This document shows positions 3 through 22,740 of a stretch of 64,000 bases of DNA, in pieces. The notes under the pieces are model-generated. The model was not told the origin of the DNA and made no database searches. It worked only from the letters and a program-made list of their open reading frames with translations. Source of the DNA: Candidatus Polarisedimenticolia bacterium (lineage in GTDB: Bacteria > Acidobacteriota > Polarisedimenticolia > Gp22-AA2 > AA152). Position numbers and translations under genes: made by a program. Each line of letters begins with the position of its first letter. Position 1 is the stretch's first letter. Location of the stretch: the NCBI GenBank assembly GCA_036004685.1, contig DASYRE010000054.1, positions 1-64,000 on the forward strand, given 5' to 3'.

Positions 3-734
3 GTCGAGGAGGCCTACAACCAGGAAGATCACGTCGTCCAGCACATCAGCAGCTTCGCGCTGTATCGCGAGAGCCGGGACTGGGTCGGGAACTTCACCCA
101 GGAGTGGCCGCTGTTCGGCGCCAAGCACCAGCTCAGCTACACGCTCGCCTGGCTCGACCCCGGCGAAGAGGCGCCGGGCGGCGCCGGCGCGGGGGACCTG
201 GCCCTGAACTACCGCTGGCAGGCGGCGGGCGGCTCCGGAGAGGCTCTCGCCTTCGCCTGGCGAGTCAGCGTGCTGCTTCCCACCGGAGATGACGAGAAAG
301 GCAGAGGCTCCGGATCGACCGGCTTCCAGCTGAACCTCCCCCTGAGCCTGCGGATCTCGCCAGGGCTGGCCGCCCACTCCAACGCCGGGATCCAGCACTT
401 CTCCTCCGAGCGCAACGACGCGGGCGACGAAGCCGGGACGACCGGCTACAACCTCGGACAGAGCCTGATCTGGCTGTTGCGTCCCGACTTCAACCTGATG
501 CTCGAGGCGGCCTGGACCAGCTTCGAAGAGGTCACGGGGCCGGGACGGACCTCGCGTTCCAGCACGTTCCTCCTCAGCCCGGGCGCGCGGTGGGCGCTGA
601 ACCTCCCCTCCGGGACGCAGATCGTCCCGGGCGTCGCGCTTCCGGTGGGCGTCGGACCCAGCTCGGGCGACTACGGTCTGTTCCTGTATTTGAGCTTCGA
701 GCATCCGTTCGGGGCGGGAAGCGCCGAACGCTAG
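3..734 (+). CDS. Outer-membrane transporter-like protein, 5' truncated
   Basis: The reading frame is open from the window edge to the stop at 734, so about 243 C-terminal residues are visible and the start lies outside. The visible N-terminal motif EEAYNQE..VVQHI followed by alternating aromatic/polar beta-strands (FALYRES..WVGNFTQEWPL) resembles the outer-membrane beta-barrel 'MetA-pathway of phenol degradation' transporter family (PF13557). The end (LFLYLSFEHPFG) looks like a final barrel strand. It converges with the GGDEF-EAL gene only 13 bases away. The substrate cannot be inferred. The family assignment is from remembered motif patterns, so it is moderate. Confidence 0.6.
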   Translation, partial: VEEAYNQEDHVVQHISSFALYRESRDWVGNFTQEWPLFGAKHQLSYTLAWLDPGEEAPGGAGAGDLALNYRWQAAGGSGEALAFAWRVSVLLPTGDDEKGRGSGSTGFQLNLPLSLRISPGLAAHSNAGIQHFSSERNDAGDEAGTTGYNLGQSLIWLLRPDFNLMLEAAWTSFEEVTGPGRTSRSSTFLLSPGARWALNLPSGTQIVPGVALPVGVGPSSGDYGLFLYLSFEHPFGAGSAER

Positions 735-747
735 CGGGACCGCGGCC

Positions 748-2907
748 TCACGACTTCCTCTTGCCCGCGACCTTGCGCGGCTGGATCGGCCGGCAGAGCA
801 GCCGCTCGAGCTGATCGGGCGGCATCGGCTTGCCGAAGAGGAAGCCCTGCATGAGCAGGCAGCCCTGCCGGCGCAGGAAGGTCCGCTGCGCGGCGGTCTC
901 GACTCCCTCCGCCATCGGGTGGATCCGCAGCCCGCGCGCCATAGAGATGATGGCGGACGTGATCGCGCCGTCTTCGGCGTTCGTGGTGATGTCGCGGACG
1001 AAGGACCGATCGATCTTGAGGGTGTCGATCGGGAAGCGCTTCAAGTAGCTCAAGGACGAATAGCCCGTTCCGAAATCGTCCAGCGAGATCCGCAATCCCA
1101 TCTCCTTGAGGTTGCGGAGCGTGCGGACGTTCTCCTCCACGTCCTGCAGGAGGATCGTCTCGGTGATCTCCAGCTCCAGGGAGCGGGGATCGAGATCGAC
1201 CGCCTCCATCGCCTCCTCGACGCTCGCCAGAAGCTGCTGCCGGCGGAACTGGCGGGCCGACAGGTTCACCGCCATCCTCAGCGAGTGATGGCCCTCGCGC
1301 TGCCAGGACTTGATCTGGGCGCACGCGGTGCGCAGGACCCACTCGCCGATCGGCAGGATGAGCCCCGTATCCTCGGCCAACGGAATGAACATTCCGGGAG
1401 CCACGAGGCCCAGTTCCGGATGCCTCCATCGCACCAGGGCCTCCACCCCGATGATCCGCCCTGATCTCATGTCCACCTGGGGCTGGAAGTGGAGAACCAG
1501 TTCATCGCGCTCGAGCGCTTTGCGCAGGCTCCCCTCCAGGTTGAGGCGGTGCAGCGCCCGGGCGTTCATCGACTCGTCGTAGAACTGATAGTTGCCGCGG
1601 CCGCAGTCCTTCGCGTGGTACACGGCGGCGTCGGCGTTCTTCAGGAGGCTCTCGACGTCCTCGCCATCGTGCGGGAAGAGGCTGATGCCGATGCTCCCGG
1701 TGACGAAGACCTCGTGCTCGTCAAGTAGGAACGGGCTTTTCAGGGAATCGAGGATCCGCCAGGCCACCTTCGCGGCGTCTTCGCCCCGGTTGATGTCCGG
1801 GATGCAGACGATGAACTCGTCGCCGCCCAGCCGCGCCACCGTGTCGCCTCTCGGGGCCGCGGGAGAGCCGCGCGCGATCGTGTCGCCTTCGCGGAGGCAT
1901 TTGCCGAGCCGCTCGGTGACCCCCTGGAGGAGCTTGTCCCCCAGCGTGTGGCCCAGGGTGTCGTTGATCTCCTTGAAGCGATCCAGATCGAGAAGGAGCA
2001 TGGCCAACGTCCGCTTCTGGCGCCGCGCCACGTTCAGGGCGGTGACCAGGCGCTCGGTGAAGAGCAGGCGGTTGGGCAACCGGGTCAGGCCGTCGTAGTA
2101 GGCGAGGAAACGGATCTGCTCCTCGCTGGCTTTCCGGTCGGTGACGTCCTGGACCGTGCCGCTCAAGCGGGCCGGGCGGCCGTCCTCGTCGAGCAGGACC
2201 TCCGCCTGCTCGTGGAGGAAGCGGATCCCGCCGTCGGGGCGGACGACCCGGAAGTCGATGCGGTAGGGCTCCTGGCTCGCCAGCGAGCGGCCGCGGGCCG
2301 CGGAGACCGCCTCCCGGTCCTCGGGATGGATCAGCTCGAGGGATCGCCCGGGATCGGGGTCGAAGCGCTCCGGATCGACGCCGAAGGCAGCGTAGATCTC
2401 CTTCGACCACCGGAGATCTCCCGACTCCAGATCCCAGTCCCAGTTCCCCAGCCCGGCGATCCGGTGGGCCGTCGCCAGCCGGCTCTCGCTTTCGCGCAGG
2501 TTGTCGAGCGTCGTCTTCGACCGGAGCATGTAACGGATCCGGTGGGAGAGGATGACCCAGTTGATCGGCTTGATGGCGAAATCGGTCGCGCCCGCCTCGT
2601 AAGCCTTGTTGACCGACTCGATGTCGTCGAGGCCGGTGAGCATCATGATCGGAAGGGAGTTTCCGCCGGGCAGGCGCCGGATGGCGGCGCACGCCTGGTA
2701 GCCGTCCATCTCCGGCATCATCACGTCCAGGAGGACCATCTGCGGCCGCTGCGCCGCGCAGGCTTTCACGGCCTCGGCGCCGTTCTCGACCTCCGAGACG
2801 GAAAAACCGGAAACCTCCAACGCCTCGCGCAGAACCATCCGGCTGGTGGAGTCGTCGTCGGCCAGGAGGATGAGCGGAGTCTTCGCCTTCGAGCCTCCGG
2901 AAGTCAT
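748..2907 (-). CDS. Response regulator with PAS, GGDEF and EAL domains (c-di-GMP turnover)
   Basis: This 719-residue protein has a receiver domain (about residues 8-125: ADDD, LLDVMMPEMDG, IKP), a PAS/PAC sensor (about 140-255), a GGDEF diguanylate cyclase domain and a C-terminal EAL phosphodiesterase domain. Both output signatures look intact: GGDEF, and EALVRWRHP, DDFGTG and AEGVET in the EAL part. It may therefore make or degrade cyclic di-GMP on phosphorylation and PAS input. An open frame extends upstream to 3297, but the receiver domain begins at MTSGG, which overlaps the stop of the upstream small exported gene (2904-3179) by ATGA, so I use 2907. A roughly 13-residue insertion with a repeated GDT[IV]AR sits just before GGDEF. 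Confidence 0.93.
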   Translation of the reverse strand: MTSGGSKAKTPLILLADDDSTSRMVLREALEVSGFSVSEVENGAEAVKACAAQRPQMVLLDVMMPEMDGYQACAAIRRLPGGNSLPIMMLTGLDDIESVNKAYEAGATDFAIKPINWVILSHRIRYMLRSKTTLDNLRESESRLATAHRIAGLGNWDWDLESGDLRWSKEIYAAFGVDPERFDPDPGRSLELIHPEDREAVSAARGRSLASQEPYRIDFRVVRPDGGIRFLHEQAEVLLDEDGRPARLSGTVQDVTDRKASEEQIRFLAYYDGLTRLPNRLLFTERLVTALNVARRQKRTLAMLLLDLDRFKEINDTLGHTLGDKLLQGVTERLGKCLREGDTIARGSPAAPRGDTVARLGGDEFIVCIPDINRGEDAAKVAWRILDSLKSPFLLDEHEVFVTGSIGISLFPHDGEDVESLLKNADAAVYHAKDCGRGNYQFYDESMNARALHRLNLEGSLRKALERDELVLHFQPQVDMRSGRIIGVEALVRWRHPELGLVAPGMFIPLAEDTGLILPIGEWVLRTACAQIKSWQREGHHSLRMAVNLSARQFRRQQLLASVEEAMEAVDLDPRSLELEITETILLQDVEENVRTLRNLKEMGLRISLDDFGTGYSSLSYLKRFPIDTLKIDRSFVRDITTNAEDGAITSAIISMARGLRIHPMAEGVETAAQRTFLRRQGCLLMQGFLFGKPMPPDQLERLLCRPIQPRKVAGKRKS

Positions 2908-21522: not shown

Positions 21523-22263
21523 TCATGCCGGCTGATAATCCTCGAGGATCGGAGAGGAGGAGTGCAAACGGAGAAGGTCGAGCGCGGCGAGGAGGACGCG
21601 CTCCTGGAGCTCCGGGCGATCCGGCTCGCCGAGGGGGTAGCCCATCGGGAAAGGCACGCAGAGCGTGCGCGGCGGCCGGACGCGCACCGCCACCTCCTTG
21701 AGCAGCGACAGGGAAACGGTGGGGATCCCGGCCGACTCGACGAAACCCTGGATCAGACCGACGGTCTGATTGCACATCGGTCAGACGGGGGTTAGGAGGA
21801 CCCAGTCGGGCCGATCTTCCTTGAGCCGGCGCGCGACTTCGGGGGCCGATTCCACCAGCAGCCGCGCCGGGGCGGTGATCGATCCCATGAAGCTGAAATG
21901 GCGGTGATTCGGCGGCCCGAGGACCCGGCGCGCCGCAAGCTCGCGCAGCCGATCCAAGGGAAACGCCAGATTCGGATCGCGCTCGATCCCGGTCCGATCG
22001 AAGGAGCGGCTCTTGTGGGCGCAGCGCAGGGACTTCACCGCCACGGCGTCGGAAATCTCCCGGAAGCTCCAGTCTCCGCCTCGAATCGTCTCGTCGAACG
22101 GAGCCTGCTCGGAGAGGTGGAGCGCCGCGGTGGTGATCAGCGCGCCGCGCGTCTCGGCAAGAGGCTTCTCCAGACGCGTCATCGCCTTCCAGGTGGAGAC
22201 GCGATACCGATACAGCTTCATGAAGCTGCGGTCGGCGAACGAAAGATCGTCGAGCTCTGCCAT
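21523..22263 (-). CDS. Putative selenoprotein, glycine/sarcosine/betaine/D-proline reductase selenoprotein B family
   Basis: I read a 246-residue protein through the in-frame TGA at 21783-21781 (Sec161). The N-terminus (FMKLYRYR, LITTAALHL, GGDWSFREI) and VLLTPV-U-PMCNQTVGLIQ followed by SAGIPTVSLS fit the GrdB/PrdB-like selenoprotein family, where UxxC is the redox site. The frame continues unshifted to 21523 with conserved-looking VPFPMGYPLGEP. A perfect SECIS-like hairpin starts 11 nt after the UGA. It is shorter than clostridial GrdB and has no glycine-reductase partner genes, so it belongs to the short stand-alone branch, of unknown substrate. The ribosome site GAGGGAA supports ATG 22263. 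Confidence 0.88.
21752..21770 (-). promoter_or_regulatory. Candidate bacterial SECIS element after UGA 21783-21781
   Basis: On the minus strand AUCAGACC (21770-21763) pairs perfectly over 8 bp with GGUCUGAU (21759-21752) around the loop GUC (21762-21760). The loop begins 19 nt after the UGA, the same distance as I recall for E. coli fdhF. The GUC loop is identical to that of the hairpin after UGA 5257. Confidence 0.78.
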
Positions 22264-22297: not shown

Positions 22298-22669
22298 CTA
22301 GCGCAGCGGCATCCCGAGCCAGCGCGGATAGCCGTCGAGCAGCGCCGAAACCAGTCCGGCCGCGGCGCCCGCCGCGAGGAAGACGGCCGCGGCGGCCAGG
22401 AGCTGCGCCAGGATTCCCCGCTTCCTCAGCCCGAGGACGGCGCCCGCTTGAGCCGCCAGGAGCAGCGCCGGCACCCACAGAAAGCCGCGCCATCCATGGG
22501 AGCACCAGGGACAATGGGGCGGCGCGGCGTGGTGGACGTCGCAATGCCGCGCGGCCCCGGCCCACGCCCAGGTGCAGCCGCATCCGAAGACCAGATTGCA
22601 TAGGTTCAAGAGGAAGAGGAGGGAAGCCGTCCACGCGCCGCCCAGGACGATGACTTCTCGGATCGACAT
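22298..22669 (-). CDS. Small Cys/His-rich inner-membrane protein
   Basis: This 123-residue protein has about three transmembrane helices (near 8-27, 58-78 and 85-108). The first extramembrane loop is rich in potential metal or redox ligands: FGCGCTW, RHCDVHH and PHCPWCSHG. GGAGGA upstream of ATG 22669 chooses this start over the longer open frame to 22723. It precedes the UGA gene by 34 bases and is probably co-transcribed with it, lhgO and the copper ATPase. I do not recognise the family; a metal- or thiol-handling role is only inference. Confidence 0.72.
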   Translation of the reverse strand: MSIREVIVLGGAWTASLLFLLNLCNLVFGCGCTWAWAGAARHCDVHHAAPPHCPWCSHGWRGFLWVPALLLAAQAGAVLGLRKRGILAQLLAAAAVFLAAGAAAGLVSALLDGYPRWLGMPLR

Positions 22670-22740
22670 CTTCAAGAGTCCTCCGGCCGCCCTCAGTATG
22701 GGCGAGACGGGCCCGGCGGGCAACCGCGCGCGAGGCGGCT

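Follow-up and report, generated by a model that had tools for sequence, protein, structure and literature searches.

In the substrates of the selenoprotein subunits GrdB and PrdB, the amine is held by a carbonyl group, which in proline reductase is the pyruvoyl group of PrdA, and the selenocysteine (Sec) of the subunit attacks the activated carbon. To our knowledge, every characterised member of the GrdB/PrdB family acts together with a subunit of the GrdE/PrdA type. Selenoproteins of the PrdB type, which carry a UxxC redox site, have also been counted in marine surveys, where they were the third most abundant known selenoprotein family in the Sargasso Sea, with 42 genes (PMC1088965), and among the commonest in the GOS samples, with 235 Sec and 110 Cys forms (PMC2398784). 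Both surveys named these proteins proline reductase by homology (PMC1088965, PMC2398784).

The gene described here lies on the minus strand at positions 21523-22263 of the window, that is, the whole stretch of 64,000 nucleotides that was analysed, and encodes a PrdB-like, stand-alone selenoprotein of 246 amino acids followed by a stop codon (TGA, 21523-21525). When the in-frame UGA at codon 161 (21781-21783, minus strand) is read as a residue, it stands in the context VLLTPV-U-PMCNQTVG as the Sec of a U-P-M-C motif. The second UxxC residue, Cys164 (21772-21774, minus strand), is invariant in the clade of the window gene and in the PrdB sequences compared. A SECIS-type hairpin of the bacterial kind, with 8 bp and the loop GUC, is located at 21752-21770 on the minus strand, its loop starting 18 nt after the UGA. 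Comparison with relatives indicates that the frame is conserved on both flanks of the UGA, and the initial annotation was correct in its frame, coordinates, strand and placement of the UGA at residue 161, as well as in stating that a conserved C-terminus continues in frame.

Family models have been used to place the protein relative to GrdB and PrdB. The Pfam model GRDB (PF07355) is just passed, at 22.8 bits against a gathering threshold of 22 with Cys written for Sec. The PrdB model TIGR04483 gives 120.1 bits over residues 27-231, short of its equivalog cut-off of 300, and the GrdB-type models TIGR01917, TIGR01918, NF040794 and NF040795 give 32-44 bits, short of cut-offs of 65-800. In GrdB proteins adjoining GrdE genes, the family profiles match the Sec-bearing half alone (approximately residues 200-440). 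A midpoint-rooted tree, for which true PrdB sequences were taken from annotated prd clusters, shows the stand-alone proteins as sister to PrdB, each group being monophyletic (95/83 and 95/88) and GrdB falling outside (100/100). The original designation as "GrdB/PrdB-like" is therefore sound at the level of the superfamily, while its GrdB half falls away, since both the scores (120 versus 32-44 bits) and the tree put the protein nearer to PrdB. To judge by its sequence, the UPMC protein is PrdB-like rather than GrdB-like, yet it is no PrdB: UPMCNQ stands in place of the UGTCxR motif of PrdB, and both the GrdE partner and the roughly 200-residue N-terminal half that mark GrdB are missing.

Four groups, of 26, 5, 4 and 13 sequences, have been compared at the active site. 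The clade of the window gene, a peroxiredoxin-linked sister clade, PrdB and GrdB have H83, D89, D96, P102, G127, Sec161, E176, G179, R199 and G208 in common, and D64, R68, N98, R105 and Cys164 are common to the window-gene clade and PrdB. The motif at the Sec column is UGTCxRCG in GrdB (the second Cys is not always kept), UGTCHR in PrdB, UPxVCHR and similar in the sister clade, and UPMCNQ/HQ in the window-gene clade. Gln166 (21766-21768, minus strand) is invariant in the window-gene clade, where the other three groups have Arg. An AlphaFold2 model (mean pLDDT 97.3, pTM 0.94) places Sec161 between the strand 154-158 and the helix 162-177, at the helix start, with Cys164 one turn on. A sequence search of the PDB gave chance matches only, the best being designed proteins, and no solved relative; Foldseek returned nothing at an E-value of 0.001 or better. 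The best VIA-align match is a LacI-type regulator (Z 8.7, 136 residues), a score that common alpha/beta arrangements also reach, so that no function is read from the fold match.

The explanation to which we give a slightly better than even chance is that this gene encodes a genuine Sec enzyme of the PrdB branch that works without PrdA or GrdE, as a selenol oxidoreductase that is self-sufficient and is regenerated by thiols of the thioredoxin type. The Sec, the SECIS hairpin, the core residues His83, Asp89, Asp96, Glu176 and Arg199, the absence of a partner and the confident fold are computed; how the redox cycle runs, what donates the electrons and what type of substrate is reduced are inferred. 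In such a cycle, the Sec161 selenolate would attack a small substrate open to reduction, either an electrophile or an oxidised group; Cys164 would then resolve the adduct into a selenenylsulfide within the protein, which a thioredoxin-type dithiol would reduce, recharging the enzyme. Without a carbonyl-donor subunit, the substrate would have to be reactive on its own. Because Gln166 and Pro162 depart from PrdB, chemistry carried over from PrdB is uncertain.

A narrower form of this explanation, drawn by analogy with D-proline and glycine reductase, is that the enzyme would reductively cleave an activated bond between carbon and N, S, O or a halogen (C-X) adjacent to a carbonyl, in a substrate needing no Schiff base. 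That the protein is homologous to PrdB and the Sec half of GrdB, and has core residues in common with them, points in this direction. However, the characterised members all act with a GrdE/PrdA-type subunit that is missing from these genomes, and the Arg beside Sec is Gln here, making C-X cleavage possible but rather doubtful. Also in favour of C-X cleavage is a GrdB-like pair proposed to act on monofluoroacetate, where a Schiff base is impossible (PMC10838667).

While the homology to PrdB favours C-X cleavage, the gene pairs of the sister clade favour redox defence. Members of this clade lie directly 3' of a (seleno)peroxiredoxin (Prx) gene in nine Acidobacteriota genomes from six families (G275, G291, G009, G025, G230, G042, G029, G074 and G188), a count obtained by comparing the coordinates of PrdB-like matches with those from a search for Prx in these genomes, after which the pairs were seen directly. 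At the loci concerned (L082, L083, L084, L085 and L092; L211-L214, L216-L218, L224 and L225) the partner is a (seleno)peroxiredoxin (TPVUT), and in the first five members examined a Prx gene on the same strand lies directly upstream, with FYPLDWTPVUT or close variants. The pairs occur as Sec/Sec, Sec/Cys and Cys/Cys, and the tandem is apparently a two-selenoprotein unit. A 2026 review of selenoprotein operons describes Prx with a SELENOW-like protein and a Prx-like with an AhpD-like protein; a PrdB-like/Prx pair is absent from it (PMC13188914).

These pairs, together with one locus of the main clade, suggest a thiol/selenol redox context for the window gene. At that locus (L132, a Blastocatellia MAG), a seleno-Prx-like gene with the motif WUPFC (534-1013, plus strand) ends approximately 48 bp upstream of the UPMC gene. 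It has been considered whether the protein serves in peroxide defence, by reducing peroxides itself or by re-reducing a peroxiredoxin. Both the nine tandem pairs and L132 speak for such a role, but the sister clade represents another paralogue, with Arg166 and at 33-37% identity, and L132 is the only one of 80 main-clade loci that adjoins a Prx-like gene, even after the loci were re-searched for Prx by tblastn reading through stops. A role in peroxide defence is thus improbable for the window gene. The same limitation weighs on the self-sufficient oxidoreductase, as 29 of the Prx observations come from other clades or from genes that are not adjacent. The tandem-type Prx of the window's own genome is present in the Cys form only, on another contig.

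The neighbourhood of the gene offers little that is shared. The initial annotation pointed to a setting with lhgO, a Cys/His membrane protein and a copper ATPase; the first two are not conserved, as tblastn finds neither in any other locus compared. A deacetylase-like gene, HemQ and a metal ATPase lie near the gene also in its nearest relative only, a member of the same family (L053/L093), and the ATPase alone of these three had been named before. A weak match to the metal ATPase (30%) is found about 4 kb away in L100. Functional links to lhgO and the membrane protein were rejected given their absence from all relative loci, and a link to the metal ATPase was rejected given its restriction to L053/L093. 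The membrane protein itself (22298-22723, minus strand) is small, contains a Cys/His-rich segment (CGC...HCDVHH...HCPWC), and matches neither Pfam nor NCBIfam models; the loci compared contain no homologue of it. No neighbour is generally conserved across phyla, and no Pfam family occurs in more than 3 of the 85 and 82 flanking proteins tallied (near-duplicates were thinned, and the ORF calls missed Sec genes with an internal TGA). Such a lack of cross-phylum neighbours is as expected for a self-sufficient enzyme.

Two recurrent associations have nonetheless been observed within lineages. Gfo/Idh/MocA dehydrogenases flank the gene at -1/+1 in 17 loci, all of them from Poribacteria according to the record titles and often with an upstream gap of 12 bp (L134, L138, L147, L150, L151, L156, L158 and L169 are among them; the Pfam family GFO_IDH_MocA was confirmed in L150 and L151). 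A PF00860 (purine/xanthine-type) permease lies just 3' of the gene in eight loci, an arrangement present in some Acidobacteriota (L057, L060, L108, L124, L128, L135, L139 and L142). These neighbours could be taken to mean that the protein is a partner in sugar or polyol metabolism or in purine uptake, but each association is bound to its lineage, and the two disagree with one another and with the lhgO of the window, leaving such a role quite unlikely.

The search for a partner subunit bears on whether the protein is simply a PrdB subunit of D-proline reductase whose partner is encoded elsewhere in the genome. No grd or prd subunit lies nearby, just as the initial annotation had reported, and its term "stand-alone" extends beyond the neighbourhood: PF09338, the GrdE/PrdA carbonyl-donor family, has no match in the source assembly (a draft) or in 24 other genomes carrying the clade (many of them drafts). 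When applied to 297 genomes around a Desulfobacterales MAG that carries the clade, the same search found PF09338 in 12 of them, so its absence is meaningful even though many assemblies are drafts. A carbonyl donor of an unrelated family would still be compatible with the missing match. The TIGR04483 match over residues 27-231 is what a PrdB subunit would give; set against the missed 300-bit cut-off, the genome-wide absence of PF09338 from the draft assembly, and the differing motif and tree position, it leaves this assignment very improbable.

That the UPMC gene product is a genuine selenoprotein is indicated by the conservation of its codon, its RNA hairpin and the machinery of its genome. 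A scan of 84,980 species genomes provided 220 relatives, and the best 80 of these, from Acidobacteriota, Poribacteria, Desulfobacterota-type bacteria, Chloroflexota, Latescibacterota, Verrucomicrobiota, Gemmatimonadota and others according to their record titles, all have UGA at the Sec codon (79 by pattern, and the 80th, L141, as PMUPMC). Within Acidobacteriota, a homologue is found in 81 of 297 genomes, the nearest all having one TGA at the Sec site, and approximately 24 loci, a set overlapping with the 80 relatives, have UGA and never Cys. No Cys form was found in the window-gene clade, among either the best 80 of 220 relatives or the main-clade loci of Acidobacteriota. As a stop lowers the tblastn score, the ranking of relatives is not biased toward UGA, and any Cys form within the clade would have been expected to surface. 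The family alignment shows a uniform Sec codon in the clade, with Cys in more distant clades. The initial annotation held that relatives with neither Cys nor Sec at this position would count against a selenoprotein; such relatives do exist (L088, L089 and L091), but only in other clades, and at 30-38% identity they are no refutation, as the gene's own clade is uniformly Sec. One or both redox residues have been lost in these stand-alone relatives, the first in SRLC and the two together in DCLS, which suggests non-redox paralogues. In a separate observation, on L159 and L165, a contig filed as Akkermansia muciniphila has almost the same gene as a Pedosphaera MAG from a lake; its assignment to Akkermansia is probably wrong.

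The hairpin has been probed in 90 distinct sequences, which are related rather than independent, such that the statistics are descriptive. At least 7 of the 8 pairs form in 83 of the 90, and pairing occurs in 93% of cells in register versus 14-51% when the partner is slid by 1-4. One pair, at offsets 18/26, clearly covaries (T-A 40, A-T 32, G-C 9), coupling the choice of a Ser/Thr/Ala codon with the third base of the Gly codon that follows, and the covariation spans phyla despite the relatedness of the sequences. Relative to synonymous-codon shuffles, folding after the UGA has a mean z of -1.69, with p <0.05 in 43% of genes, as opposed to +0.12 and 1% for a control stretch of the same genes under the same shuffles. 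A search of the window gave no Rfam match. Taken together, the pairing, covariation and folding mark the SECIS element expected of a selenoprotein gene.

The source genome (a 3.84 Mb draft in 62 contigs, listed as 100% complete) contains the Sec machinery: selA (564 bits), selB (302 bits, or 327 counting a second piece), selD (369 bits) and a tRNA-Sec (75 bits, anticodon tca, i.e., UCA). The selD gene has an internal TGA (L049, G000:C8:40973-41899), so SelD is likewise probably a selenoprotein. A candidate second tRNA-Sec at C54:156723 was ruled out, as it is a tRNA-Ser. The UGA, the SECIS hairpin, the Sec machinery and the family matches bear out the original proposal of a UxxC-site selenoprotein of the GrdB/PrdB superfamily. 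The view that the UGA is a real stop, a sequencing error or the mark of a decayed gene has only the stop codon itself in its favour, and with the same UGA in about 90 distinct sequences from several phyla, SECIS covariation and Sec machinery against it, it is almost certainly wrong.

The initial annotation regarded this as a stand-alone branch without known function; the kind itself is not new, having been counted since 2005 (PMC1088965, PMC2398784). In the open literature searched (subscription papers lay outside it), there is no account of a split from PrdB, of a partner-free UPMC branch with Gln166, of a clade without Cys forms or of the Prx pairing. Carriers of the window-gene clade include soil and marine bacteria. 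It may be, although we rate the chance as somewhat below even, that the UPMC branch forms an enzyme class of its own, obligately dependent on selenium and partner-free, with a remodelled site (Arg166 to Gln, UGTC to UPMC), that catalyzes a new reaction in many largely uncultured phyla, and that the sister clade with Prx is a new two-selenoprotein system. If the environmental branch is partner-free and no PrdB, the name proline reductase is wrong for many ocean selenoproteins, and a widespread selenium-dependent reaction awaits assignment. Furthermore, a clade in which Cys forms were not found is well suited to studying what keeps Sec in place, and the Prx-linked sister clade is a testable lead to the electron path.

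Among known systems, PrdB (e.g., that of Terrisporobacter glycolicus pTG1) is similar in size (242 and 246 amino acids), homologous over the full length at 37% identity, and shares the Sec column, the Cys three residues later and the core D64, R68, H83, D89, D96, N98, R105, E176, T182 and R199. The window protein differs from it in having UPMC-Q rather than UGTC-R, in belonging to its own sister clade, and in occurring without prdA, prdC, prdD or a racemase. GrdB (PF07355, TIGR01917/01918) is homologous in its Sec-bearing half, with Sec in the same column; the protein described here is about half its length, lacks GrdE and has another motif in place of UGTCxRCG. The alphaproteobacterial proteins of Roseomonas and Haematobacter annotated as "Glycine/sarcosine/betaine reductase selenoprotein B family protein" are also stand-alone and belong to the same wider group, but these are Cys forms (CPVC, CPIC) of approximately 300 amino acids with extensions, at 30-34% identity. 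Finally, the "Proline reductase PrdB" proteins of the Sargasso Sea and GOS surveys are alike in description (members of pfam07355 with UxxC that abound in open-ocean and coastal samples), and this set very probably includes the stand-alone branch, although GOS contains 110 Cys homologues and none was found in the clade of the window gene.
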